From: Salinisphaera sp. LB1
GTDB lineage: Bacteria; Pseudomonadota; Gammaproteobacteria; Nevskiales; Salinisphaeraceae
Direction: 5' to 3'
DNA: 64,000 bases
NCBI RefSeq assembly: GCF_003177035.1
Contig: NZ_CP029488.1
Coordinates: forward strand, 248,001-312,000
Shown here: in pieces, positions 3,036 to 45,686 of the stretch
How the letters are laid out: each line of letters begins with the position of its first letter
Position numbering within the stretch: position 1 is the stretch's first letter
Made by a program: the position numbers and the translations under genes
The notes under the pieces: model-generated
The model's database searches: none
Seen by the model: only the letters and a program-made list of their open reading frames with translations
Told to the model about the DNA's origin: nothing

Positions 3036-3114
3036 TCCTACCTCCAACACGTGGATTAAATAGGAGTCATCAGCCTCGGATAGGAGGCAATTCAAGGCAA
3101 ACTCCATCGCCTTC
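3034..3114 (-). promoter_or_regulatory. Fluoride riboswitch (crcB motif) II, upstream of crcB
   Basis: On the minus strand, 3111-3061 reads GGCGATGGAGTTTGCC, a linker, a GCCTC/GAGGC hairpin (3089-3072 area), then TGATGACTCCTA. This is the fluoride aptamer layout with a different P3 sequence from riboswitch I. The terminal ACTCCTA (3067-3061) is complementary to TAGGAGT (3040-3034), which overlaps the ribosome site and start of the small ORF at 3035. That again suggests translational control by alternative pairing. The next large genes are crcB and its DUF190 partner, the expected targets. Confidence 0.87.
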
Positions 3115-3292
3115 GTTGTACGACCGAAATATCTCGCCGAAGGCAGAGCATGTCAAGAAACGCCCCCAATGCAGGGTGGCGACCCGTATCAATGGCGAAT
3201 GAATATAGCGTTGGATCAGGCTGAGCCCGGCGCCGGCCGCCCCCCCCCATGGGTGGCGACTACCCACCACATCGCATGTTGATTCCGGGCGA

Positions 3293-21291: not shown

Positions 21292-21642
21292 ATGTCGCGG
21301 AACCCAGCCAAATTTTCGGCCCTCGTGCAGGGCTTGCTGGCGCTTTGTCTTTTTTGCAATGCGCTGGGTTGGTCGTTTCATGTCCAGGCCGCGAGCTTCA
21401 CGGGGGCCGATCACTCGATCGTGCAAGCTGATGGCGAGACGGTCGATTCGGCGACGCACGCCGCCGATGCCGCTGGCGACGATCTGACCGATCACTGCGG
21501 CCACGGCGAGTTGCATTTCCTCGGCATCATCCCGTCCCTGAATGCGGCCGTTGCGTCGGTTCGCGGCATACTCAATCGTGCCCCGCGCCCGCATTACGCG
21601 GGCCCTCGCCCCGAACCCCTGATCACACCGCCCATAGCCTGA
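21292..21642 (+). CDS. Small exported CzcI-like protein at head of czcCBA
   Basis: A 116-residue protein with a signal peptide (about residues 1-33: LVQGLLALCLFCNALGWSF, HVQAA). It has a metal-ligand-like LTDHCGHGELHF near residue 78 and a proline-rich tail. Length, signal peptide and position directly before czcC match CzcI-type proteins found at the start of Czc/Cnr operons, thought to be periplasmic modulators of metal efflux. Sequence similarity is weak, so the role is inferred from position. The start is ATG at 21292; a GTG/ATG upstream extension would spoil the signal peptide. Confidence 0.62.
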   Translation: MSRNPAKFSALVQGLLALCLFCNALGWSFHVQAASFTGADHSIVQADGETVDSATHAADAAGDDLTDHCGHGELHFLGIIPSLNAAVASVRGILNRAPRPHYAGPRPEPLITPPIA

Positions 21643-24278: not shown

Positions 24279-27200
24279 ATGATTGCTCGATTCGTAAGAC
24301 TGGCGCTGGCCAACCGGGTGCTCACCCTGGTGGCGATCGCAGCCCTGGCCCTGGCCGGTGTCTATTCATTTCAGAATGTCCCGATCGATTCCTACCCCGA
24401 CGTCACACCCCCGATGGTGCAGATCTATACGTCGAGCCCGGGGCTGTCGCCGGTCGATGTCGAGACCCAGGTGTCGTATCCGGTCTCGATCTCGATGTAC
24501 GGCCTGCCCAGGCTGGAACGGGTACAGAGCACATCGATCTTCGGACTGTCCCGGGTCAACGTCTACTTCGAGGACGGCACCGATATCTATTTCGCCCGGC
24601 GGCTGGTCATGGAACGTCTGGCCAAGGCACGACAGCAGATTCCGAAGGGCCTCGGCGAGCCCCAACTCGGCCCCATCACCAGCGGGCTGGGCCGGGTGAT
24701 GATGTATACCGTCGAAAACACCGACCGCAGCCAGCACTCGCCGAGCGCCCTGCGCACCGCCCAGGATTGGATCGTGAAGCCCCAGCTGCGCACGGTGCCC
24801 GGCGTGACCGGCGTGCTGTCGATCGGCGGTTATGAAAAGCAGTATCAGGTCGCCCTCGACCCCAACGCCCTGTCGGCTCGCAATATCACCGTGGCCGACG
24901 TGCGTCGCGCCATCGCCGAGAACAACCGCAACGTCGGCGGCTCGTTCATCAACCGCGGCGGCGAGGAATACATCATCCGCGGCTATGGCTGGGTCGATCC
25001 CGGCGAAAAGGGGCTTGCGGATCTGCGCGAGATTCAGGTGACCGAAAACAACGGGACACCGGTGTATCTCGATGACATCGCCGAGATAGGCTTCGGCCCG
25101 GCCATCCGGCGCGGCACCCTGATCGCCGACGGCGAGGAAGCGGTCGGCGGTTTCGTTCTCAAGCTGATCGGTCGCAACACGCAGGCCCTGCTCGACAACG
25201 TCGAGGCGAAGATCGACACGGTCAACGAGGCCTTGCCGGAAGGCATGCGGGCCAAGCCCTACTATTCCCAGGCCAGCCTGATCGACAAGGCCTCGGCAAC
25301 GGTCGAGGACGCCTTGCTGGAAGGCTCGCTTCTGGTGTTGGTGCTGCTTTACCTGTTCCTCGGCAATCTGCGCTCGACCCTGATCGTGATCGCGAGCCTG
25401 CCCTTGTCGGCCCTGATCGCGTTCATCGCCATGGATTATGTCGGTCTCTCGGCCAACCTGATGAGCCTCGGGGGCCTGGCGATCGGTATCGGCATGATGG
25501 TCGACGGCTCGGTCGTCATGATCGAAAACATCTTTCGGCACATGGAGGAACGGGCGGAAGAAGACGTATCGCACATGCGCCTGGTCGGCGAAGCCGCCGC
25601 CGAAGTCGCCCAGCCCATCACCTTCGCCATCGCGATTATCGTGCTGGTCTTCACCCCGCTGTTCACCTTGCAGGGGACCGAAGGCAAGCTGTTCTCGCCA
25701 ATGGCCTACACCATCTCGTTCGCGCTGGCCGGCGCGCTGGTCATGGCGCTGACCTTCGTTCCGGTGATGGCGTCATTGTTGTTCAGGAGACGCAGCGCAC
25801 ACGGCGAACCCCGGCTCGTGGGCTGGCTCAAAGCCGGCTACCGACCGATTCGCGATGCGGCGATCAAGGCGCCGGTCGCCGTGCTGGGGGCGGCAATCGT
25901 GCTGTTCCTGTCCAGCCTGGCGATCTTCCCGACGCTGGGCACCGAGTTCATCCCGACGCTGCGCGAGGGCACGTTCATGGTGCGCTCGACCCTCCCGCCG
26001 GGCGCCAGTCTGGACAAAGCCAGGGAATACGCCAAACGCGTGCAAACCGTGATGCGCGAGTTCCCGGAAGTCCGGGGTGTGTATTCACGGGTGGGGCGTG
26101 CCGAAGTCGGCGGCGACCCGGAGCCGGTCAACGTCATTGCCTCGCTGGTCAATCTCAAACCCCTAGATGCCTGGGCGAGCGACCGCGACTACGAACAGCT
26201 TCAGACGGCGATGGCCGAGCGCGTGGGCGAGTCGTTGCCGGGTCTGGCTAACAACTTCTCGCAGCCGATCCAACTGCGCACCGACGAGTTGCTCTCCGGC
26301 GTACTCGCCCAGGTCGTGGTGAGCATCTACGGTGACGATCTGACCAAGCTGGCCGACACCGGCCGAAAGATCGCGGCGATTGCGCGCGCGGTACCCGGGG
26401 CAGCCGACGTACGGGTTCAGCAACAAGGTGGCAAGCCACAGATCGTGGTCCGCCCCGATCGCGCCGCGCTGGCACGCCATGGCATTCCGCTCGACGAGGT
26501 CCTGGGTGTGGTCGAGACCGGCATCGGCGGTGCCGCCGTCGGCCAGGTGTTCGAAAACATCCGACGGTTCGACATCTTTCTGCGCTTCGATGAGACGGCT
26601 CGGAACCGGGTCGACGCCATCCGCGACCTGACCTTCCGCACCTCGCAGGGCGCCTTGATCCCGCTATCCCGCGTGGCCGACGTCGAGGTCTACCGCGGGC
26701 CGAAGAAGATCTCGCGGGCCAAGGCCAGCCGGCGCCTGTTCGTGCAACTCAACGTGCGCGGACGCGACATGGGCGGTGTGGTGCGCGATATCCAGAAGCG
26801 CGTGGCCAGCGACGTCGAACTGCCGCCCGGTTATTTCGTGGAATACGGCGGCCAGTTCGAGAATCAGCGGCGGGCGATGGCCCGACTATATGTCGTGGTG
26901 CCGATCACCATGGCGCTGATCTTCCTGTTGCTGTTCATCGCCTTTTCCAGCCTGCGCTATGCCGCACTGATCTATCTCAACGTGCCGTTCGCGATTACCG
27001 GCGGAATATTCGCGCTCTGGGTCTCCGGACTGTATCTGTCGGTGGCCGGCGCCGTCGGCTTCATCGCCGTATTCGGCGTCGCCGTGCTCAACGGGGTGGT
27101 GCTGGTTTCGTATATCAACCAGTTACGCGAGCAGGGGATGTCGATCGACGAAGCCGTGCGTGTGGGCGCCGAGCATCGGCTCAGGCCGGTTCTGATGACG

Positions 27201-27383
27201 GCGACCGTCGCCATTCTCGGCCTCGTTCCGCTGCTGCTGGCCAACGGCATCGGCGCCAACGTGCAGCGCCCGTTGGCGGCGGTCGTCGTCGGCGGGTTGA
27301 TCACGTCGACCTTGTTGACGTTGCTCGTGCTTCCGGCGGTGTATCGCTGGTTCGCCGAGCCGCGCCGGGACATCGACGTCTAA
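24279..27383 (+). CDS. czcA: Heavy-metal efflux RND pump CzcA
   Basis: A 1034-residue RND transporter with the typical layout of 12 transmembrane helices and two large periplasmic loops. The proton-relay/TM4 motif GIGMMVDGSVVMIEN near residues 400-414 fits the divalent-cation branch of heavy-metal RND pumps (VDG, not the VDA of CusA). The loop segment GLSPVDVETQVSYPV near 51 and the ending LVLPAVYRWFAEP are characteristic. Substrates are most likely Zn, Co, Cd or Ni; the motif does not settle which. Third gene of czcCBA, followed by a structured leader before a PII-like remnant. Confidence 0.92.
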   Translation: MIARFVRLALANRVLTLVAIAALALAGVYSFQNVPIDSYPDVTPPMVQIYTSSPGLSPVDVETQVSYPVSISMYGLPRLERVQSTSIFGLSRVNVYFEDGTDIYFARRLVMERLAKARQQIPKGLGEPQLGPITSGLGRVMMYTVENTDRSQHSPSALRTAQDWIVKPQLRTVPGVTGVLSIGGYEKQYQVALDPNALSARNITVADVRRAIAENNRNVGGSFINRGGEEYIIRGYGWVDPGEKGLADLREIQVTENNGTPVYLDDIAEIGFGPAIRRGTLIADGEEAVGGFVLKLIGRNTQALLDNVEAKIDTVNEALPEGMRAKPYYSQASLIDKASATVEDALLEGSLLVLVLLYLFLGNLRSTLIVIASLPLSALIAFIAMDYVGLSANLMSLGGLAIGIGMMVDGSVVMIENIFRHMEERAEEDVSHMRLVGEAAAEVAQPITFAIAIIVLVFTPLFTLQGTEGKLFSPMAYTISFALAGALVMALTFVPVMASLLFRRRSAHGEPRLVGWLKAGYRPIRDAAIKAPVAVLGAAIVLFLSSLAIFPTLGTEFIPTLREGTFMVRSTLPPGASLDKAREYAKRVQTVMREFPEVRGVYSRVGRAEVGGDPEPVNVIASLVNLKPLDAWASDRDYEQLQTAMAERVGESLPGLANNFSQPIQLRTDELLSGVLAQVVVSIYGDDLTKLADTGRKIAAIARAVPGAADVRVQQQGGKPQIVVRPDRAALARHGIPLDEVLGVVETGIGGAAVGQVFENIRRFDIFLRFDETARNRVDAIRDLTFRTSQGALIPLSRVADVEVYRGPKKISRAKASRRLFVQLNVRGRDMGGVVRDIQKRVASDVELPPGYFVEYGGQFENQRRAMARLYVVVPITMALIFLLLFIAFSSLRYAALIYLNVPFAITGGIFALWVSGLYLSVAGAVGFIAVFGVAVLNGVVLVSYINQLREQGMSIDEAVRVGAEHRLRPVLMTATVAILGLVPLLLANGIGANVQRPLAAVVVGGLITSTLLTLLVLPAVYRWFAEPRRDIDV

Positions 27384-27389
27384 CCCTGT

Positions 27390-27566
27390 GGCCTGTAACG
27401 CAAATGCACCGCCCTGTTCCGGCAGGCGTTCAGGCCAGACGCCTTGGTAGCGCCCCTTCTATCAAGGTGTCACCGGCGGCGCCGTTCGCACCGGCGCCGT
27501 CGCCATTCGACCCGCGGGCATCCGGCTCTGTTACCCCCTCAGGCGATGCCCGTGGGTCGTCTTTTC
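27390..27566 (+). promoter_or_regulatory. Structured leader A with intrinsic terminator
   Basis: The region after czcA contains, in order, GGCCTGTAACG (27390); hairpin CCTTGGTAG/CTATCAAGG (27442-27450, 27459-27467) with a C-rich loop; GGTGTCACCGGCGGCG; a GGCGGCG/GCCGTCGCC stem; ATTC; and a terminator (27508-27522 pairing with 27545-27559, 14 of 15) followed by TCTTTTC. The terminator loop holds TTACCCCC, able to pair with GGTAG of the first hairpin. The same order and compensating changes occur at 33602-33767. Next is the remnant ORF at 27593. Confidence 0.6.
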
Positions 27567-27592
27567 ATGCGATAGACAAAGGAGAGACCACC

Positions 27593-27670
27593 ATGAAAGA
27601 AATCAAGGCCTACATTCGTGCGCACTGCAGTCGTAGCGCATCATCACGTGGAAGAGACCGGCGAAGATAA
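27593..27670 (+). pseudogene. Truncated PII-like protein gene (N-terminal fragment)
   Basis: ATG at 27593 behind AAAGGAGAG opens with MKEIKAYIRAH, matching the N-terminal strand of PII-like proteins found behind heavy-metal RND operons. Homology then ends abruptly and a stop comes after 25 residues. The break coincides with a convergent remnant of another metal gene (27603-27692, minus strand), so a deletion probably joined the two. Leader A would have controlled the intact gene. Confidence 0.6.
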
Positions 27671-27692
27671 TGAACCAGAGCAGGCTTCCCAT
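27603..27692 (-). pseudogene. Truncated small membrane metal protein (YHS-type N-terminus)
   Basis: ATG at 27692 with TTGGAGAA upstream encodes MGSLLWFIIFAGLFHVMMRY then DCSAHECRP and stop, 29 residues. The hydrophobic head resembles the N-terminus of small membrane proteins with a GCGAH-like cysteine/histidine knuckle that usually continue into His-rich and YHS domains. The rest is lost at the junction with the PII-like remnant. The 267 bases between it and the DUF4396 gene contain nothing I can assign. Confidence 0.45.
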
Positions 27693-27959
27693 CTTGTTCT
27701 CCAAGAGACTGAGACGTTTGGTTCGCTACCCGAAGTAGAGAGCCTTACCACAGTCTGCGATGGCACCTGAGATCGGTCTTGGCCAGGATCAATCGACGCT
27801 TGGATCGAGGCTGGCCAGATTTCTGTGAGATCTCCGAAAGCAAGGCGACATCGGAAATCTGGCGAACCGGCCCAGCCAGTCTGGGCCATGCCCATCGTCC
27901 AGAGGTCGGTAACGCGCCGTTCCACCTGACCGGGCGTCTCGACGCGCGATGAACGCAGG

Positions 27960-28817
27960 TTACAGACCGCCAAGAAACATGGCGAGAACCAACCCTAGAG
28001 CGAATATGCCGACGGAAAGAACGGTCATTCCGGCAAGCGCGGCGGTCGTCACCGATCTTCCGTCGGGATGGGGCGCAGACACGTTGTCATGATCGAGACG
28101 ATCCCCAGACATGTGATGGTGCCCTGTTCCGGAGGCGTGTGCAGAGGCCCCATCGGCGCGCTCAACGGATGCGCGCACGGTCATCATCCCATGCTTGAGG
28201 TGGCGGGCGACCAGCCACCAGTTCATCGGATAGGCGGTCACGAAGCCGATCAATAAGGCCATCGACATCACGAACCAGAATGCCGGGTGGGACGGGTCCC
28301 GGCCGCCGGGTACATGGGCCATTGCCACTGTCATCACCGGCACCATGCCGGCCATGAGGCAGTTCATGGAAAGCAGTTCGGAAAAGAACGTGCCGGCAAG
28401 GGCACGCGTGTACGAGCCACCGGCCATGCCGCGCATGAACAGCGACTGGAAGATGCTCCAGCCGAACGCAAAGCCCAGCACGTACTCCAGTGCGACATCG
28501 CCATACCCGGACAACTCGACCGACGCGGCAATGACGGCTCCAGCCAGAATGCCGATGCCGTCGCCGGCGACACAATGCATGGTCGATCCGAGGACCTGAC
28601 GCCAACGCGCCGCGGTATAACGCTCGTGCAGACCCGGCAGCGGCTCACGGCAACCGAGCACATATAGGAAGGCTCCAATTGGCCCGGTATAGGCGGTCAG
28701 CAGAACAAATCCCCATTTGAGCACCGGAGACTCCGGCGTCGAACGGATATCGAGACCTACGTACAGCACCGATAGCGCGGTCAGGACAAACCAGAGCAGC
28801 ATCACGCCATCGAGCAT
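27960..28817 (-). CDS. DUF4396 membrane protein (first copy), His-rich loop
   Basis: A 285-residue protein with about six hydrophobic segments. DUF4396 hallmarks: MHCVAGDGIGILAGAVIA near residue 91, FGWSIFQSLFMRGM near 126 and TAYPMNWWLVARHLKHGMM near 205. After these comes a His/Asp-rich loop (ASGTGHHHMSGDRLDHDN near 229-246) and a last helix. The start is ATG at 28817 behind GGGAGGAATT. Function of the family is unknown; it is common in copper/metal islands. The loop suggests metal binding. It overlaps the stop of the upstream small ORF by one base. Confidence 0.83.
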   Translation of the reverse strand: MLDGVMLLWFVLTALSVLYVGLDIRSTPESPVLKWGFVLLTAYTGPIGAFLYVLGCREPLPGLHERYTAARWRQVLGSTMHCVAGDGIGILAGAVIAASVELSGYGDVALEYVLGFAFGWSIFQSLFMRGMAGGSYTRALAGTFFSELLSMNCLMAGMVPVMTVAMAHVPGGRDPSHPAFWFVMSMALLIGFVTAYPMNWWLVARHLKHGMMTVRASVERADGASAHASGTGHHHMSGDRLDHDNVSAPHPDGRSVTTAALAGMTVLSVGIFALGLVLAMFLGGL

Positions 28818-32893: not shown

Positions 32894-33232
32894 ATGTTGC
32901 GCTTAATCGCGATAACCCTTTTAGTCATGCAGGCACTGGTCGCTCAGGCCGGCGTCCACGGGATATCGTGTCTACATAGCCCGTCAGGCGAGTCGCCGCA
33001 ACCTGCCTCGATTACAGCGCATGGCCGCGCCTCGCAACCGGACCAGCCGCCTCGGCATGAGATGGGCTGTTGTGCCACGATCGGCAGCTGTTCGCCCAGC
33101 GCTTTGGCAAGCAATGCGCTTGCGTCCGTCGCACCCAACCCGAGACCGACCTATCCGCTCGCGACGACGATGTCGCGAGCGCAGCTTGGCTTCGTCCGAC
33201 TCCCCTATCGCCCCCCGTCTTTCGCCATTTAA
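32894..33232 (+). CDS. Small exported Cys/His-containing protein, CopL-like
   Basis: A 112-residue protein with a signal peptide (MLRLIAITLLVMQALVAQAG). The mature part has scattered metal-ligand residues: HGISCLHSPSGES near 22, PPRHEMGCCATIGSC near 58-72. Secreted, Cys-containing leaders of this size precede copAB in several proteobacteria (CopL) and modulate copper induction. Here copA/copB follow, but 850 bases away. The ATG at 32894 is chosen because the signal peptide begins there; it has no strong ribosome site. Family membership is uncertain. Confidence 0.55.
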   Translation: MLRLIAITLLVMQALVAQAGVHGISCLHSPSGESPQPASITAHGRASQPDQPPRHEMGCCATIGSCSPSALASNALASVAPNPRPTYPLATTMSRAQLGFVRLPYRPPSFAI

Positions 33233-33601
33233 CTGACGCTCAGCGACGTCTGTGATGTCGCAATCCAGTTAACCCAGGTGCCTCGTGATTGTTGCTGCCA
33301 CGAATCGGTTGTCCATACCGGTTTTCGGGATCGTCTGGCCTTAAGGCCATGGCGAATAGCAATTGCGAGTCGCCATGCGAAAGGCGATCTCCATGACACT
33401 TTGTTCTTCCTTGGCTCAGCAGCCTATTGACGGCGGCATCATCCGAACCAATCGGACCGCCGCGTCCCCTCTCAGCTGCGATCGCACTCGGCCGCGGGTC
33501 CCTGGCCTGATCCTGCCTCTTTGCAGGTGCCGCCAGTAGCGTTTCGGCATCGGGTTGATCACTCAGGCCTGTTTTACCTCACGGTATATCGCTGGTCCGC
33601 C
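33233..33601. other. Non-coding stretch before structured leader B
   Basis: No gene, repeat or clear terminator is seen in about 370 bases. It should contain the promoter for leader B and copAB. Confidence 0.35.
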
Positions 33602-33767
33602 GGGCTGTAACGACATATCGATCTCCGGCGCTGGCGCCCGGTCATCTCGGTAGTCCCCCTGCTACCGGGGTGCCAGCGGCGAGGCCAAATCAACGGTATC
33701 GCCGCTATTCGGCCTTCGGGTACCCCGCCCTGCTACCCCCTGACCGGGTACCCGAGGCCGTCTTTTT
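33602..33767 (+). promoter_or_regulatory. Structured leader B with intrinsic terminator, upstream of copAB
   Basis: Same order as leader A: GGGCTGTAACG (33602); hairpin CTCGGTAG/CTACCGGG (33646-33653, 33662-33669) around TCCCCCTG; GGTGCCAGCGGCG; a GCGGCG/CGCCGC stem; ATTC; and terminator CGGCCTTCGGGTACCC/GGGTACCCGAGGCCG (33710-33725, 33746-33760) with T5 after it. The terminator loop contains CTACCCCC, which is complementary to GGTAG of the first hairpin. Primary sequence differs from A within stems but pairing is kept. Confidence 0.65.
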
Positions 33768-33789
33768 GAATGTGAATACGGAGAAGGGT

Positions 33790-34086
33790 GTGAAAGAAAT
33801 AAAAACACGGATCAGAACAAGCCACCGATCGAGAAAAGCCCCGGCCACGGGCTGTCCACCTCATTCAAGCAGAACATGTCTCGTAAAGCGGGACCCCGTC
33901 TATTCCAATTTTTGTAAGGCCATTCCCGATATGACAGACGCCATCGATCAAAAATTTATCACCCAAGCCCGGGGCGATGAAGAAAACCGTGGGCACGCCA
34001 TAAATATGTACCGCCATAGCCACCCGGCCGCTACCGATTGCCATGATCCGCAAGCAGCCCAGCATAGCGAAAAGGATCACGCATGA
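33790..34086 (+). pseudogene. KEIK-starting ORF, probable decayed PII-like gene coupled to copA
   Basis: GTG at 33790 behind GAGAAGG opens VKEIKTRIRTSH, like the PII-like N-terminus at 27593. The frame stays open for 98 residues, but after the first dozen it no longer resembles the family; it ends in a His-rich tail (MYRHSHPAATDCHDPQAAQH). Its TGA overlaps the copA ATG (ATGA), so it may still serve as a coupling leader. It could be a frameshifted gene or a new His-rich protein. Confidence 0.4.
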
Positions 34087-36014
34087 ACGATCGCACACTC
34101 AATTCCGAGCGCCGGCGCCTCCTACAGGCCATGGCCGCCGGCGGCATGCTGGCCGGCCTCGACATGTTCTTGCCGGGTGTATCCCGCGCCGCAGCCGTGC
34201 GTACTGCCGGCCAGGCCGCACGTGTCAAGGGCGGCATGCCACGCTCGGTCACGCGTGACTTCCATATCCGATCGGAACGCATTGAGATTGCGGGTGGCCA
34301 AGCTACGGCAAACACCGTTGACCACGGTGTACCGGGGCCGCTGCTGGAACTCTGGCAAGGCCACAATGCGCGACTGCGCGTGCACAATCATCTGAGTAGT
34401 TCGATAACGTCGCTTCACTGGCACGGCCTCCTGCTGCCGTTCGAACTCGATGGCGTGCCCGGGGTGTCATTCCCCGGCGTGGCGGCAGGCGATACGTTCG
34501 AAGCCTATTTTCCGGTGCGCCAGTCAGGTACGTACTGGTACCACAGTCATGCCGGTTTTCAGGAGCAAATTGGCCAGCTCGGGCCCATCGTGATCCATCC
34601 GGCCGAACCCGAGGCCAACCCGGCGGATCGCGAGTATGTCGTTGTACTCACGGACTGGACCTTCGAGAACCCGGCGCGTCTGTTTGCCAAGCTCAAAGAG
34701 TCCAGCGACTACTACAACTTCCACCAACGCACGCTGATCGATCTTATCGACGAAGTGGAAAGACAGGGCCTAACCGAGACACTCAAGACCCGACTGGCCT
34801 GGAACAAGATGCGCATGAGCCCGCGTGATATCGCCGATGTCACCGGGCATACCTATACCTACCTGATGAACGGCCAGCACCCGGCGGCGAACTGGACCGG
34901 CCTGTTCACGGCCGGCGAGCGCATCAAACTGCGGGTGATCAACGCCTCGTCGATGACCTACTTCAATTTCCGTATCCCCGGTCTGCCGATGACTGTCGTC
35001 GCCGCCGACGGCCAGAAAATCGATCCGGTCGACACCGACGAGTTTCAGATTGCCGTGGCCGAAACCTATGACGTCATTGTAAAACCGCATGCCGACACCG
35101 CCTATACGATCATGGCCGAATCGATGGACCGCTCGGGCTATACCCGCGGCACGCTCGCGCCGCGTCCTGGAATGACCGCGGCTGTGCCGGCGCTGCGCCC
35201 GCCGCCGACCCGCACCATGGTCGATATGGGCATGCCCATGAAGAACATGGCCATGGACAAGAATATGTCCGACCAGAGCATGGCAATGGCTGGCGGCCAT
35301 TCGTCTTCAGCCGGCGGCGAGAAAACCACGACGGTGATGGGCGCCGAGCCTGCTATGGGCGACATGCACGGCGCTCACGGCAGCGCCCGCGGCATGTCCG
35401 ACTCAGGCAAAGCTGCGGGTGGCTCGAGCCCGGCAATGGCTGATATGGGCATGGATAATTCCGGCCCGGTCATCGCCCAGCACGGCCCCAGCACTCACGG
35501 CGTCGGCAACGTCAACGTCGCCGAGGCCGAACGGTACCGGCTGGCCGACCGCCCGACCGGGCTGGCCGACGTCGCACATCGCGTGCTGACCTACAGTCAG
35601 CTGCGCAACATCGTGGTGCCGCCGGATACGCGCGAGCCGTCGAAGACGATCGAGGTCCATCTTACCGGCAACATGGATCGTTACATGTGGTCGTTCGACG
35701 GCCGCGAGTATTCGCAGGCCAAACCGATTGAGTTCCCTTACCGCGACCGCATCCGGTTGATCCTGGTCAACGACACCATGATGGAGCATCCGATCCATCT
35801 CCACGGCATGTTCATGGAGCTGGAAAACCATCAGGGCGAACATCGGCCATACAAGCATACGATCAGCGTCCTGCCAGGGTCGCGCGTATCGCTACTGGTG
35901 ACGGCAAATGAACCCGGCCGCTGGGCCTTTCATTGCCATCTGCTATACCACATGGAGGCCGGCATGTTTCGCGTCGTGCGCGTGGCTCCGGCCTCGGAGA
36001 TGACTCATGCCTAA
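34083..36014 (+). CDS. copA: CopA-type periplasmic multicopper oxidase
   Basis: A 643-residue multicopper oxidase with a Tat signal (RRRLLQAMAAGGMLAGLD). Copper ligands: HWHG near residue 112, WYHSHAGFQ near 151, HPIHLHGMF near 569 and HCHLLYHMEAGMF near 617, giving the T1/T2/T3 sites. A Met-rich insert (about residues 375-460, with repeats such as MGMPMKNMAMDKNMS and MGDMHGAHG) should bind Cu(I), as in PcoA/CopA. It oxidises Cu(I) and sequesters copper in the periplasm. The end overlaps copB by 8 bases. Confidence 0.94.
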   Translation: MNDRTLNSERRRLLQAMAAGGMLAGLDMFLPGVSRAAAVRTAGQAARVKGGMPRSVTRDFHIRSERIEIAGGQATANTVDHGVPGPLLELWQGHNARLRVHNHLSSSITSLHWHGLLLPFELDGVPGVSFPGVAAGDTFEAYFPVRQSGTYWYHSHAGFQEQIGQLGPIVIHPAEPEANPADREYVVVLTDWTFENPARLFAKLKESSDYYNFHQRTLIDLIDEVERQGLTETLKTRLAWNKMRMSPRDIADVTGHTYTYLMNGQHPAANWTGLFTAGERIKLRVINASSMTYFNFRIPGLPMTVVAADGQKIDPVDTDEFQIAVAETYDVIVKPHADTAYTIMAESMDRSGYTRGTLAPRPGMTAAVPALRPPPTRTMVDMGMPMKNMAMDKNMSDQSMAMAGGHSSSAGGEKTTTVMGAEPAMGDMHGAHGSARGMSDSGKAAGGSSPAMADMGMDNSGPVIAQHGPSTHGVGNVNVAEAERYRLADRPTGLADVAHRVLTYSQLRNIVVPPDTREPSKTIEVHLTGNMDRYMWSFDGREYSQAKPIEFPYRDRIRLILVNDTMMEHPIHLHGMFMELENHQGEHRPYKHTISVLPGSRVSLLVTANEPGRWAFHCHLLYHMEAGMFRVVRVAPASEMTHA

Positions 36015-36816
36015 GTTTATGCAAGGGACAATGACCGCTTTGGCACTCGCGCTGACCAGCGCTGGCTCTCTCGCTCTGGCCGCCGAGCCGCCCGGCAAAG
36101 CGAATCCGAACAGCGTTGTGCCCCACGGCGCCGAAAATGCATCGAGCGGCGCACCAGCAAGCTGGAATCCACCGATCCACGACGACGCGATCCATCAATA
36201 CAGCGCTATCAATCGCCTGGAGTACGGCACCGGCAACGCGCCCGACAGTTATCAATGGGAGGGCAGTGGCTGGGTTGGCGGCGATATCAATCGCTTCTGG
36301 TGGAAAACCGAGGGCGAAGGCGCGACCGCCGGTGGCTCGCCCGATTCGACGTCGTTCGAGGCCGACTACGGACGCGCGATCACGCCATTCTGGAACGCGC
36401 TGATCGGCGCGCGCTACGACCTGTATCCCGGAAAGGATCGTGCGTTCGGCATGCTCAAGCTGCAGGGATTGACCCCGCTGTATCTTGATACCGAACTTTC
36501 GTTCTACGTCAGTCAGGACGGCGTGCCCAGCTTCCGGGGCGAGTTTCAGTACGAGCCGTTGATTACGCAGCGCTTGCGTCTGGCCCCGCGCGTGGAAATC
36601 AATATCGGGGCTCGCGATGCCCGTTACGGCTTGGGCGGCGGCCTGCAGAACACCCAACTGGGCCTGCGGCTGAAATACCAGGTCCGGCGCGAGTTCGTAC
36701 CCTATATCGGCGTGCGCTGGAACAAGACATACGGCGATACCCGGCGTATCACCGAGGCCGAAGGTCAGCGCAGTTCCTCGACCGCGTTCGTGGTCGGGCT
36801 GAGCGCCTGGTACTAA
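36007..36816 (+). CDS. copB: CopB-type copper resistance outer membrane protein
   Basis: A 269-residue beta-barrel protein with a signal peptide (1-25, ending LALAAE). CopB/PcoB family motifs: WEGSGWVGGDINRFWWKTEGE near residue 80-100, YGRAITPFWNALIGARYD near 119, YEPLITQRLRLAPRVEIN near 182, and the C-terminal RREFVPYIGVRWNKTYGDT near 227 with a final aromatic (WY). It lacks the long Met-rich N-terminal region of PcoB. It starts inside the end of copA, so translation is coupled. It probably helps hold or export copper at the outer membrane. Confidence 0.92.
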   Translation: MPKFMQGTMTALALALTSAGSLALAAEPPGKANPNSVVPHGAENASSGAPASWNPPIHDDAIHQYSAINRLEYGTGNAPDSYQWEGSGWVGGDINRFWWKTEGEGATAGGSPDSTSFEADYGRAITPFWNALIGARYDLYPGKDRAFGMLKLQGLTPLYLDTELSFYVSQDGVPSFRGEFQYEPLITQRLRLAPRVEINIGARDARYGLGGGLQNTQLGLRLKYQVRREFVPYIGVRWNKTYGDTRRITEAEGQRSSSTAFVVGLSAWY

Positions 36817-41598: not shown

Positions 41599-41898
41599 TC
41601 AGCGGTATTTCAGAATATCCATGAGCTCGGCCACGATCGCGTCGTCATCGCCGCGTTCATGGGCGGTCACCACGTGATGTTTCAGGTGGCAACGCAGAAT
41701 CATGTCGCCCGTCTTGGCCAACGCGCCGTTCACGGCCTTGATCTGCTTGAGCGCATCGACGCAATACACATCGTCGCGTTCGAGCATGCGCAGGATGCCC
41801 TCAACGTGTCCCCGGATGGACCGAAGCCGGCTGCGCGCATCTTCACGCACAGCCGGGTCCAGAGCCAGTTGCGTATTCTCTGGATTGAGCTCAGCCAT
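41599..41898 (-). CDS. csoR: CsoR/RcnR-family metal-sensing repressor
   Basis: A 99-residue all-helical repressor. The family core is seen as [18 protein letters not shown] (near residue 24) and [20 protein letters not shown] (near 47). Sensor positions are Cys in VYC, His 25 residues later (RCHLKHH) and His again at +29, so the set is C-H-H, where copper CsoR proteins usually have C-H-C; an extra Cys lies at +24. The start is ATG at 41898, overlapping the copZ stop as TAATG. It should repress its own operon from the palindrome at 42119. Copper sensing is inferred from neighbours, not from the ligand set. Confidence 0.87.
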
Positions 41899-42098
41899 TA
41901 TGCAGCGCGGGCGTCGTAGCCTTCTTCCTCGACCGCCGCAATCAACGCGTTCACGTCGGCCGAACCTTCGACCTCGGCTTCGCCTTCGTCTAGACGCACG
42001 GCGACCACCCGGTCGACCCCGGGCACTTCGGAAAGCGCCGCATCGACACTTTTCACACAATGCTGGCAGCTCATGCCGTCGATCTTCAGCTTAGTCAT
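41898..42098 (-). CDS. copZ: CopZ-like copper chaperone
   Basis: A 66-residue HMA-domain protein with the metal site IDGMSCQHCVKSVDAAL (CxxC near residues 11-14) and a ferredoxin-like ending (VNALIAAVEEEGYDA). It delivers Cu(I) to the HMA domains of the neighbouring ATPase or to CsoR. The start is ATG at 42098, with GGAGACC upstream; an earlier in-frame start is rejected. The stop TAA shares one base with the csoR start. First gene of copZ-csoR-copA. Confidence 0.92.
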   Translation of the reverse strand: MTKLKIDGMSCQHCVKSVDAALSEVPGVDRVVAVRLDEGEAEVEGSADVNALIAAVEEEGYDARAA

Positions 42099-42118: not shown

Positions 42119-42136
42119 CCACCCCACTAGGGGTGG
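42119..42136. promoter_or_regulatory. CsoR-type operator before copZ
   Basis: CCACCCCACTAGGGGTGG is a palindrome of seven-base arms with a central ACTA. It matches the G/C-tract dyads bound by CsoR proteins and lies 21 bases before the copZ start. The divergent DUF4396 gene begins 91 bases to the right, so it may be co-regulated. Confidence 0.75.
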
Positions 42137-42226
42137 GTTAGGATGTGTTCGAAAATCTACGCTTCGGTCGAGGCGCTGTCAATGATCGGCAGCGGCGCCG
42201 GCCGATTCTCAACCAAGGAGAAAGCT

Positions 42227-42883
42227 ATGGGAGTCCTTGAAATCGTCGCTTGGATCGTCGTCCTATTAGGCGTGGCGACGGGGCTGGCAATACTGCGCGA
42301 CGTCATTCGTCATCCGCAGCCCATGCAGATCATGAACGTGACATGGCCGGTCAACGGCTTGTTCACGCCGGTGTTCGGCTGGTGGGTCTACAAGAAACTC
42401 GGGCGGCCCGACGCCGACGCGGGTGGCCATACGCATAAACCGTTTCCGCAGAGTGTGCTCGTCGGCGTCACCCACTGTGCGGGCGGTTGCGTGCTCGGCG
42501 ATTCAATCGCGGCACCCATCGTGTCGATCGTTGGTTTAACCGTGGCCGGCTCGCTGTTGCTCGGTCATTTTGCGGGCGAGTTCGTGGCCGCTTATCTATT
42601 CGGCATCGCGTTCCAGATGCTGCCGATGATGAGCATGGGCGAGTCCAACCCGTTCAAGGCGTTCATCAATGCCATCAAGGCTGATACGCTGTCGCTGGTA
42701 TCGTTCGAGATCGGCATGTTCGGCTTTATCGCGCTATCGTTTCTGGTGCTCTTACCGCACGAGCCGGAAGTCACCTCACCCGTTTTCTGGTTCATGATGC
42801 AGATCGCGATGATCATCGGCTTCGCCACGGCATATCCGGCGAACTGGTGGCTTATCAAGCGCGGCATCAAGCACGGTATGTGA
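42227..42883 (+). CDS. DUF4396 membrane protein (second copy)
   Basis: A 218-residue membrane protein with about six hydrophobic segments and the DUF4396 pattern: VTHCAGGCVLGDSIAAPIV near residue 82, FGIAFQMLPMMSMGESNPF near 125, and TAYPANWWLIKRGIKHGM at the end. It lacks the His-rich C-terminal loop and last helix of the copy at 27960. The start is ATG at 42227 behind a textbook AAGGAGAAAGCT. It is divergent from copZ-csoR-copA around the CsoR-type operator, so copper induction is likely. Conserved THC/MHC and Met residues are candidate ligands. Confidence 0.86.
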   Translation: MGVLEIVAWIVVLLGVATGLAILRDVIRHPQPMQIMNVTWPVNGLFTPVFGWWVYKKLGRPDADAGGHTHKPFPQSVLVGVTHCAGGCVLGDSIAAPIVSIVGLTVAGSLLLGHFAGEFVAAYLFGIAFQMLPMMSMGESNPFKAFINAIKADTLSLVSFEIGMFGFIALSFLVLLPHEPEVTSPVFWFMMQIAMIIGFATAYPANWWLIKRGIKHGM

Positions 42884-44238: not shown

Positions 44239-45237
44239 TCACGAGCCGATTTCGATGCGCGTCGAATGCAGGGTCGGCAGATGATCGGCCAGCGCGCGCC
44301 GCACCGCCTCCACAATGCGATCCGTCTCGGCCACCGGCAGCGCGCCATCGAGCCGGATCGTCAGCTCGACTGCCAGTTCGTGGCCCAGCCAGCGCGCGCG
44401 TACATCCGTCACGCCCTGTACCTCTTCGACATGCTCGGCCGCATGGTGGATTTCGTCGATCAGCTGCGGCTCGACGCCGTCCAGCAAACGTGTGAACACG
44501 GCACGCGCGGATTGCCAGACGATGCCGAAGATGGCGATCGTGATCAGCAGGCCGATGACGGGATCGGCCAGCGGGAAACCCAGCCATACACCCAAGGCCC
44601 CGACCACGACCGCCAGGCTGGTCAGCCCGTCGGTACGCGCGTGATAGCCGTCGGCAATCAGGGCCGCGCTGTTCATCTGCCGCCCCACGCGAATACGGAA
44701 CACCGCCACGATCTCGTTGCCGGCAAAGCCAAGCAGGCCGGCCAGCGCCACCCAGCCGAGCTGCGCGATCGGCTGCGGGTGCACAAAACGGTTGACGGCC
44801 TCGTACCCGGCGACCAGCGCGCTGAACAGAATAATCAGCACTACCACGACACCGGCCAGGTCCTCGACCCGGCCATAGCCGTAGCTGAAGCGCCGCGTGG
44901 TCGGCCAGCGCGCCAGGCGGAAGGCGACCCACAACGGAATCGCGGTGGCCGCATCGCCGACGTTGTGAATGGTGTCGGCCAATAGCGCCACACTGCCGGA
45001 CCACAGTGCGATCACCAACTGACCCAGCGCTGTCACGGCCAGAATGACGAACGACCACTTGATCGCCCAGATCCCGCGCTCGGTCGCGGCCAGGCTCGGA
45101 TCGACCACGCCGTGCATGTGACCATGGCCGGCGCCGTCATGCGCATGATGCCCGTGTTCGTGATGGTGATGGGCCCCGTCATCGCTCGCGCCGAAGCCGA
45201 GCCAATCCCGTACGGCCTTGATCGAGGGCTTGCTCAT
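44239..45237 (-). CDS. dmeF: DmeF-type cation diffusion facilitator (Co/Ni efflux)
   Basis: A 332-residue CDF exporter. A His-rich N-terminus (GAHHHHEHGHHAHDGAGHGH, about residues 21-40) precedes six helices. Metal sites are HNVGD after LLADTI near 88 and YHARTDGLTS near 193, i.e. the H/D and D/D pairs typical of CDF site A. A soluble C-terminal domain ends ADHLPTLHSTRIEIG. The start ATG overlaps the repressor stop as ATGA. The pairing with a CsoR/RcnR-type repressor matches DmeRF loci of Co/Ni resistance. Confidence 0.87.
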   Translation of the reverse strand: MSKPSIKAVRDWLGFGASDDGAHHHHEHGHHAHDGAGHGHMHGVVDPSLAATERGIWAIKWSFVILAVTALGQLVIALWSGSVALLADTIHNVGDAATAIPLWVAFRLARWPTTRRFSYGYGRVEDLAGVVVVLIILFSALVAGYEAVNRFVHPQPIAQLGWVALAGLLGFAGNEIVAVFRIRVGRQMNSAALIADGYHARTDGLTSLAVVVGALGVWLGFPLADPVIGLLITIAIFGIVWQSARAVFTRLLDGVEPQLIDEIHHAAEHVEEVQGVTDVRARWLGHELAVELTIRLDGALPVAETDRIVEAVRRALADHLPTLHSTRIEIGS

Positions 45238-45506
45238 AGATATTTCGTGATCGACTTGAATTCGTCCATGAGCACACGTGCCTGCTCGCGGTCCTTTTCG
45301 AACAGATCGATGTCGAAGCAATGATCGACATGATCGTGTACCAGCGTGCGCTTGGCATTCGTGATCGCGTTCTCCACGGCGCTCAATTGCTGGGCGATCT
45401 CCAGACAGCCCTGCTCTTCCTCGAGCATTTTGACCACACGGCCCAGATGGCCCTGGGCGCGCTTCAGGCGATTGATGATCTGCGGATGGGATTCGTGCTT
45501 GCTCAT
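45234..45506 (-). CDS. dmeR: DmeR/RcnR-type metal-sensing repressor
   Basis: A 90-residue protein of the CsoR/RcnR family: IINRLKRAQGHLGRVVKML near residue 10, GCLEIAQQLSAVENAITNAK near 33, LVHDHVDHC near 55-63. Possible ligands are the Cys in GCL, the His 25 residues on, Cys at +29 and N-terminal His4/His7, suited to Ni or Co. Start ATG 45506. Its stop overlaps dmeF. It should bind the dyad at 45513-45534, releasing it with metal. Confidence 0.85.
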   Translation of the reverse strand: MSKHESHPQIINRLKRAQGHLGRVVKMLEEEQGCLEIAQQLSAVENAITNAKRTLVHDHVDHCFDIDLFEKDREQARVLMDEFKSITKYL

Positions 45507-45512
45507 GCCAAT

Positions 45513-45534
45513 ATCCTATCCCCCTGGATAGGAT
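45513..45534. promoter_or_regulatory. RcnR/DmeR-type operator
   Basis: ATCCTATCC and GGATAGGAT form an inverted repeat around CCCT, an AT-containing dyad flanking a C-tract as in RcnR/DmeR sites. It starts 7 bases upstream of the dmeR start and covers its ribosome site, implying autorepression. The 45535-45686 remainder is empty. Confidence 0.72.
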
Positions 45535-45686
45535 TGTGACAACAAACGAGAACCCGGTTGGTTGCAGCCGATGGCCGGCCGTTTTAAAGAGCACGAGTAC
45601 CCTCGGCCCCGGGCAACGCCTGCACAAGCGGCCTGCATCGACAGCCCACACGACCCGATTCGGCATGTCGTTGGGTGTGAACGCCC

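Follow-up and report, generated by a model that had tools for sequence, protein, structure and literature searches.

The 64,000-nucleotide stretch of Salinisphaera sp. LB1 DNA analysed here (the window) carries, in front of the copper-resistance genes copAB, a leader that a preliminary description had read as the second copy of one RNA layout. The question raised by this locus is whether the two leaders are copies of a conserved regulatory RNA that controls metal genes and, if so, whether such an RNA chooses between terminator and antiterminator through GGTAG-CTACC pairing. Direct reading, blastn, folds and covariation confirmed the shared layout. Using region 33601-34085 as query, blastn against the window returned, apart from the query itself, copy A at 65.7% in an alignment of 166 columns (E 4e-12); the next-best match had an E of 0.24. 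Copies A and B are homologous, each consisting of three successive hairpins (P1, P2 and P3) in the same order and spacing, the third of which is terminator-like. The structured part of copy B is 33639-33769, and the remainder of the interval originally described is mainly a small ORF at 33790-34086.

33639-33769, plus strand: RNA element copy B, P1-P2-P3 terminator form (blastn against copy A, fold, six-copy covariation, and 139.1 bits with model R2, copy B being one of that model's own training sequences)
33640-33674, plus strand: P1 hairpin of copy B, loop CCCCCU (fold; both-sided change in 5 of 12 helix-1 pairs)
33675-33706, plus strand: P2 hairpin of copy B, loop without C-richness (fold; both-sided change in 4 of 9 helix-2 pairs)
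33710-33767, plus strand: P3 hairpin of copy B (33710-33760) with a 20-nt C-rich loop (ACCCCCU), then U5, an intrinsic-terminator form (fold; both-sided change in 7 of 15 helix-3 pairs)
27436-27568, plus strand: RNA element copy A, starting 52 nt 3' of the czcA stop (blastn, fold, pair changes between A and B, R2)

Read directly, the arms of P1 in copy B are CTCGGTAG and CTACCGGG, GGTGCCAGCGGCG lies at 33669-33681, an ATT-containing linker joins P2 to P3, T5 is found at 33763-33767 and GTGAAAGAAATAAAA follows at 33790. In copy A, P1 (27438-27471), P2 (27474-27502) and P3 (from 27508) are followed by T4 at 27562-27565 and by ATGAAAGAAATCAAG at 27593. Taken alone, GGTGCCAGCGGCG is not special, with 11 matches at up to two mismatches against 8.0 expected.

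A covariance model built from A and B (R1), run against 100 genomes, matched five of them at E<=0.01, the window's own included, at nine places: six strong ones, namely A, B, one in genome G010 and three in G006, and three weak ones behind czcA in G009, G010 and G013 (26-35 bits with R1). The weak copies keep a strong P2 hairpin and have neither the U-run nor the C-rich P3 loop. A second model built from the six strong copies (R2) returned the same six places in three of the 14 genus genomes and nothing else at E <1e-4, and it did not recover the weak czcA-linked copies at E up to 1. In wider samples, R2 matched 2 of 41 genomes in the order sample (at most 82 candidates scored per genome) and 1 of 369 in the class sample (at most nine per genome), counts that include the window's own genome and that distant copies may escape. 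At A and B, Rfam gave nothing at gathering level and sub-threshold matches only at E up to 10. Plasmids gave no DNA match to copy B at E 0.01 and no tblastn match to the CutF-like ORF upstream of it at E 0.001, viral contigs gave no pattern match, and a pattern search of genome contigs, with a pattern outside which copy B itself falls, gave four stretches, three in S. hydrothermalis C41B8 and one in MAG SP48. On this evidence the RNA is clade-level, its clear copies coming from three genomes of a single genus (Salinisphaera).

Single folds gave z-scores of -5.8 for copy B and -7.2 for copy A, none of 200 shuffles being equally stable. The preliminary description had stated that stem bases changed in pairs, and this was borne out: a comparison of A with B shows 7 of 36 pairs altered on both sides, and over the six strong copies 16 of 36 are so altered, compared with a shuffle mean of 5.9 and none of 500 shuffles reaching 16. 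In the alignment used (A5), which holds the six strong copies fitted to the model structure and leaves out the weak G009, G010 and G013 matches as well as the reverse-strand and spurious rows of alignment A3, 96.3% of pair cells are standard pairs, compared with 33.8-47.4% paired and 1-4 both-sided pairs in slid-partner controls on the six copies. A MAFFT alignment of the same copies (A6) gave the same three helices, with both-sided changes in 16 of 37 predicted pairs. The changes are spread over all three helices, as listed above, and in several copies G-U pairs occur in the P1 arms. What stays unpaired is confined to apical loops, short linkers and single mismatches or bulges; no ligand-binding domain with a conserved unpaired core was seen in the folds and the six-copy alignment, and the folds consist of three independent hairpins with no multi-helix or aptamer-like junction. 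An extra 5' stem (P0), spotted by eye in A and B, is formed by the longer minimum-free-energy fold in A and not in B, and is not claimed as part of the element. Among the open-licence papers listed, none describes this RNA, which is a real, clade-specific and apparently undescribed structured RNA of terminator form in metal operons.

The third hairpin agrees with the usual description of an intrinsic terminator, a GC-rich hairpin directly followed by a U-run: P3 with UCUUUU is present in six of the six strong copies and missing from the three weak ones. The P3 of copy B, with its 20-nt loop, is not listed by a consensus terminator scan that allows loops of 3-8 only. Forbidding P3 cost 26.4-34.6 kcal/mol in all six copies under an energy model of single strands without proteins or ribosomes. 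P1 and P2 then remained unchanged and the rest was unpaired, apart from two copies in which a small hairpin formed within what had been the loop, and within this single-strand model no competing fold or mutually exclusive antiterminator appeared in the six copies. As modelled, the RNA alone looks like a fixed terminator, and the cause of any regulation is most likely external, that is, a ribosome, a protein, Rho or another RNA. Inspection by eye found no consistent pairing by which the C-rich loops would mask the downstream SD in cis.

The surroundings of copy B, which bear on what such a terminator could act upon, are as follows.

32894-33232, plus strand: CutF/CruR-like ORF with a signal-like N-terminus, CCxxxGSC, and PYRPP near the C-terminus (homologues in 13 of 14 genus genomes)
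33229-33272, plus strand: possible two-tier stem around the stop codon of that ORF, TTAACTG...CAGTTAA with an inner hairpin (single-sequence folds)
33790-34086, plus strand: small ORF of 98 aa starting VKEIK, with GGAG at 33780-33783; its stop overlaps the copA start at 34083 (sequence)
34083-36014, plus strand: copA, copper-resistance multicopper oxidase (TIGR01480)
36007-36816, plus strand: copB, copper resistance protein B (Pfam CopB, 1.1e-65)

The upstream ORF and its relatives combine the cysteine motif CC(C)xxxG(S/H)C with a C-terminal PYRPP ahead of a metal operon, as CutF/CruR-type ORFs do. Three of the proteins scored 13.8-16.2 bits with DUF2946 (PF11162) against a cut-off of 23.7 (E 0.1 for the window ORF, 0.018 and 0.02 for two sister proteins), and because the family was matched below its cut-off only, we term the ORF CutF/CruR-like. 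In each of the 13 genomes (of 14) that have homologues, one lies at most 1 kb upstream of a copA match. CutF-like places numbered 19, of which 17 were opened and 15 were readable, L103 and L104 not being readable in frame to the stop. Of these 15 loci, ten continue with an ORF whose start is MKTLK, MRTWK or similar, one with copA directly and four with the RNA (the window, G010, and G006 twice). By motif only, the ORFs that follow the CutF-like ORF may be cytochrome c-like; by eye, the proteins of G010 and G007 have CxxCH and that of G002 does not. The copA of G002, with 88% identity over the first 206 residues, stands without the RNA. In G010 a distance of 8.4 kb separates the RNA and its CutF-like ORF from the copA match, which has a CutF-like ORF of its own without the RNA. 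The stop codon of the CutF-like ORF may lie inside a two-tier stem that single-sequence folds form at the three other RNA-bearing loci as well; an alignment fold of 14 rows, of which L102, L107 and L114 represent a different PYRPP site, gave no structure. The 98-codon ORF before copA has no Pfam match and a tail that by eye looks similar to that of the G002 ORF in front of copA; it is apparently a decayed gene kept open, and the open frame perhaps serves translational coupling to copA.

Copy A lies in a different setting.

24279-27383, plus strand: czcA, CusA/CzcA-type RND efflux pump gene upstream of copy A (TIGR00914, 1127 bits)
27593-27670, plus strand: truncated P-II-like ORF of 25 aa, MKEIKAYIRAH..., 3' of copy A (intact P-II-like gene at the same place in G004 and G006)

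In G006 the RNA sits between czcA and an intact P-II-like gene, and in G004 and G008 the P-II-like gene, with the start MKEIKAYVRE, follows the czcA stop at a distance of at most about 25 nt without the RNA (Pfam E 3.2e-11 and 2.4e-7 for the G004 and G006 proteins). The preliminary description had remarked that the next ORF again starts KEIK. The start is indeed present after both copies; a sensor peptide does not follow from it, since the ORF after copy A is a truncated P-II-like one. Because sister species have an intact P-II-like gene with that start at the same place, KEIK after copy A would most simply be the remnant start of such a gene, and KEIK after copy B either a copied P-II-like start or merely a similar lysine-rich one. 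In G009, G010 and G013 a short ORF takes the P-II position, and the gene behind it belongs to the cation-efflux family (by Pfam in G010 and G013). Between copy A and 29421 the plus strand has, besides the truncated ORF, a single ORF in a listing with a 90-codon minimum, and it runs antisense to a DUF4396 gene. Upstream of the czc genes, a small ORF at 21292-21642 combines a signal-like start with a Cys/His stretch and ends in a Pro-rich segment (RPEPLITPPIA); Pfam matched it to DUF3761 only, at 0.033 and below cut-off, and from its place we take it to be CzcI-like. CzcI is mentioned in the available text of PMC9973294.

Among the promoter types scanned, no promoter-like site was found on the plus strand of 33230-34100 and 27300-28000, so that a free RNA would have to arise from an upstream transcript by termination or processing, unless a promoter of another type serves it. 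The loops of the element recall those of the sRNA sX13. CCCC occurs in the P1 loop in five of six copies, in the P3 loop in five of six and in the P2 loop in none; the P1 loop of copy G006c has CCC at most and no uninterrupted C-tract, and the P3 loop of G006a has no CCCC as aligned. The available text of PMC3771888 describes sX13 as encoded at the polA locus, with three stable hairpins and the C-rich loops CCCC, CCCC and CCCCC, through which it acts, and reports that GGGG is over-represented around the starts of the mRNAs that sX13 represses. An array of C-loop units came to light through two weak matches of R2 within the genus, one in G003 (E 9e-4) and one in G006 (0.0086). Three to six such units are present in 13 of the 14 genus genomes, the exception being a MAG of 81% completeness, and in those 13 the arrays adjoin the same DNA polymerase I end (tblastn; Pfam DNA_pol_A for G006), for example at G000:C1:1485713-1486613 (L094 about 1214-2114). 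In the five genomes scanned the units scored up to 39.0 bits with sX13 and 39.6 with anti-hemB, below the gathering cut-offs of 50 and 49.5. The multiplication of polA-linked sRNA-like units, three- to sixfold per genome, is unusual in its own right. Since the C-rich loops of A and B resemble those of sX13 and the same genus carries polA-linked sX13-like units, an sRNA reading of A and B is plausible by design, not by membership. No target was apparent among the window's 52 ORFs: GGGG before or at the start was found in 5 of 52, compared with 5.1% of all 28-nt windows, in a count where one ORF starts inside the RNA and some ORFs are probably not real genes.

We tentatively favour, short of an even chance, a terminator-ended RNA unit that would limit read-through into copA and possibly release a C-loop sRNA. 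The unit is self-contained, three successive hairpins placed in joints of metal-resistance transcription units, and homology, covariation, position and the absence of a competing fold that opens the terminator hairpin are its observed parts. According to the mechanism that we propose, most upstream transcripts would stop at P3, copA depending on read-through or on an undetected promoter; the stopped transcript would give rise to a stable RNA, the P1 CCCCU and P3 CCCCCU loops of which could pair with G-rich translation starts, as in sX13; and the amount of RNA would follow metal through the upstream unit, that is, the CutF-like leader for B and the czc promoter for A, with no metal binding by the RNA. 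Such a unit is supported by copy A, which ends the czc genes and is followed on the same strand by nothing more than a truncated ORF, and by the distance of the G010 copy from the copA match. The reading is opposed by the weak czcA-linked copies, with their missing U-run and C-rich P3 loop, and by P2, which is not C-rich. Activity of the released RNA would make metal operons sources of sRNA as well.

Somewhat doubtful, yet the strongest of the alternatives, is a gate that works purely in cis and has no trans activity: the terminator would stand between the CutF-like leader and copA, or between czcA and its next gene, and would be opened by the position of the leader ribosome, by the state of Rho/NusG or by an RNA-binding protein. 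Copy B lies where the published systems, as far as the available text of PMC9426467 and PMC9973294 describes them, place a stem-loop or a Rho termination zone. Just 3' of the terminator, GAATACGGAG and a start codon are common to three B-type copies, and this conservation speaks for a cis role; the small ORF whose stop overlaps the copA start and the short ORF after the weak copy in G013, which overlaps the cation-efflux gene, point the same way. However, 406 nt separate the CutF-like stop from copy B, which is far for direct ribosome action, copy A has no such adjacent ORF and almost nothing to gate, and the RNA is missing from 11 of the 15 readable CutF-like loci. Unlikely, in our estimate, is a two-output metal-stress unit, in which the terminator would set read-through from a copper-sensing leader into copA, termination would release an sX13-like sRNA that represses G-rich mRNAs, and the copy at the czc end would feed the same regulon; if this held, two metal operons would report into one sRNA regulon.

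It is decidedly improbable that the element is a passive terminator which also protects the 3' ends of the czc and cutF-like mRNAs, its structure being kept for stability only. Such a role would agree with the very stable hairpins, with copy A following shortly after a stop codon and with the strong P2 hairpin that the three weak czcA copies keep without a U-run, but it calls for neither the duplicated P1-P2-P3 order nor C-rich loops in two of three hairpins, and copy B stands before copA, not at the end of an operon.

There is very little chance that the element is a metal-responsive riboswitch or attenuator based on GGTAG-CTACC exchange. The proposal of a conserved regulatory RNA holds in so far as the element is structured, has conserved terminator form and occurs in two copies at metal genes, and fails in the terminator/antiterminator choice. 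The GGTAG-CTACC pairing sits within P1, and the sole other CTACC of copy B (33733-33737) belongs to the terminator hairpin's 20-nt loop, and pairing with it would therefore keep the terminator stem intact; the GGTAG arm is missing in copy G006c. Three extra conserved 6-column helices outside P1-P3, against a mean of 0.33 from 200 column shuffles, count in favour of a switch, but they are built from mutually similar P1-P3 arms and are selected by no fold. We rejected the exchange on the lack of a competing fold in the six copies and on the cost of forbidding P3, to which the lack of an aptamer-like junction is added. Hardly credible at all is P1 as the DNA operator of a CsoR/RcnR-family repressor, an operator type in which an inverted repeat encloses a C-tract. 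Two repressors of this family are encoded in the window (45234-45506 and within 41599-42060), and immediately ahead of the start of the first lies an inverted repeat enclosing GGGGG; but the G-U pairs in P1 arms of several copies have meaning in RNA only, G006c has no uninterrupted C-tract, and P2 and P3 covary too.

Other features of the window deserve mention. The inverted repeat CCACCCC-ACTA-GGGGTGG at 42119-42136, beside the CsoR-family gene (within 41599-42060, minus strand) and a membrane gene (42143-42883, plus strand), is presumably a CsoR operator. At 44239-45536 on the minus strand the CsoR/RcnR-family repressor (45234-45506), before which AGGGGG sits in the operator-like inverted repeat, is followed by a cation-efflux family gene, a layout that we take to be DmeR-DmeF-like. 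Two fluoride riboswitches lie on the minus strand at 1541-1603 and 3054-3120, about 1.5 kb apart (62.4 and 50.8 bits).

Among known systems, NiCo (czcD) and other metal riboswitches are structured RNAs at metal-efflux genes, and the element resembles them in this respect; it differs in that no such Rfam family was matched at A and B and that the folds have no multi-helix junction. Zinc and Ccn sRNAs in Streptococcus pneumoniae are reportedly the subject of one study. The alphaproteobacterial C-loop sRNAs ar7 and CcsR1 gave sub-threshold matches to copy B of 16.8 and 18.5 bits, and with gathering cut-offs of 60 and 65.3 membership was rejected; the available text of PMC3771888 gives ar7 sRNAs three stem-loops with C-rich motifs. 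To the sX13 of Xanthomonas (RF02232), as described there, the element is similar in its three stable hairpins and in the C-rich loops of P1 and P3, whereas A and B are not beside polA, have a P2 loop that is not C-rich and are placed in metal operons; the sX13 model (gathering 50 bits) was absent among the matches to A and B at E up to 10. According to the available text of PMC9426467 and PMC9973294, copper controls the next gene in Rhodobacter capsulatus CutF/CutO through a stem-loop that hides the cutO SD, and in Bordetella pertussis CruR through Rho. Like these leaders, so far as that text covers them, the copy B locus has a small ORF that carries a Cys motif and, at its C-terminus, a Pro motif, and it has an RNA element between this ORF and the metal gene; unlike them, the RNA here has terminator form, lies 406 nt further on and occurs in 3 of 14 genomes. 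The element offers a compact testable case of a structured RNA common to copper and czc-type efflux operons. In addition, a CutF/CruR-type leader here contains an intrinsic-terminator form, at a place for which the available text of the same two papers describes an SD-masking stem-loop and Rho termination.
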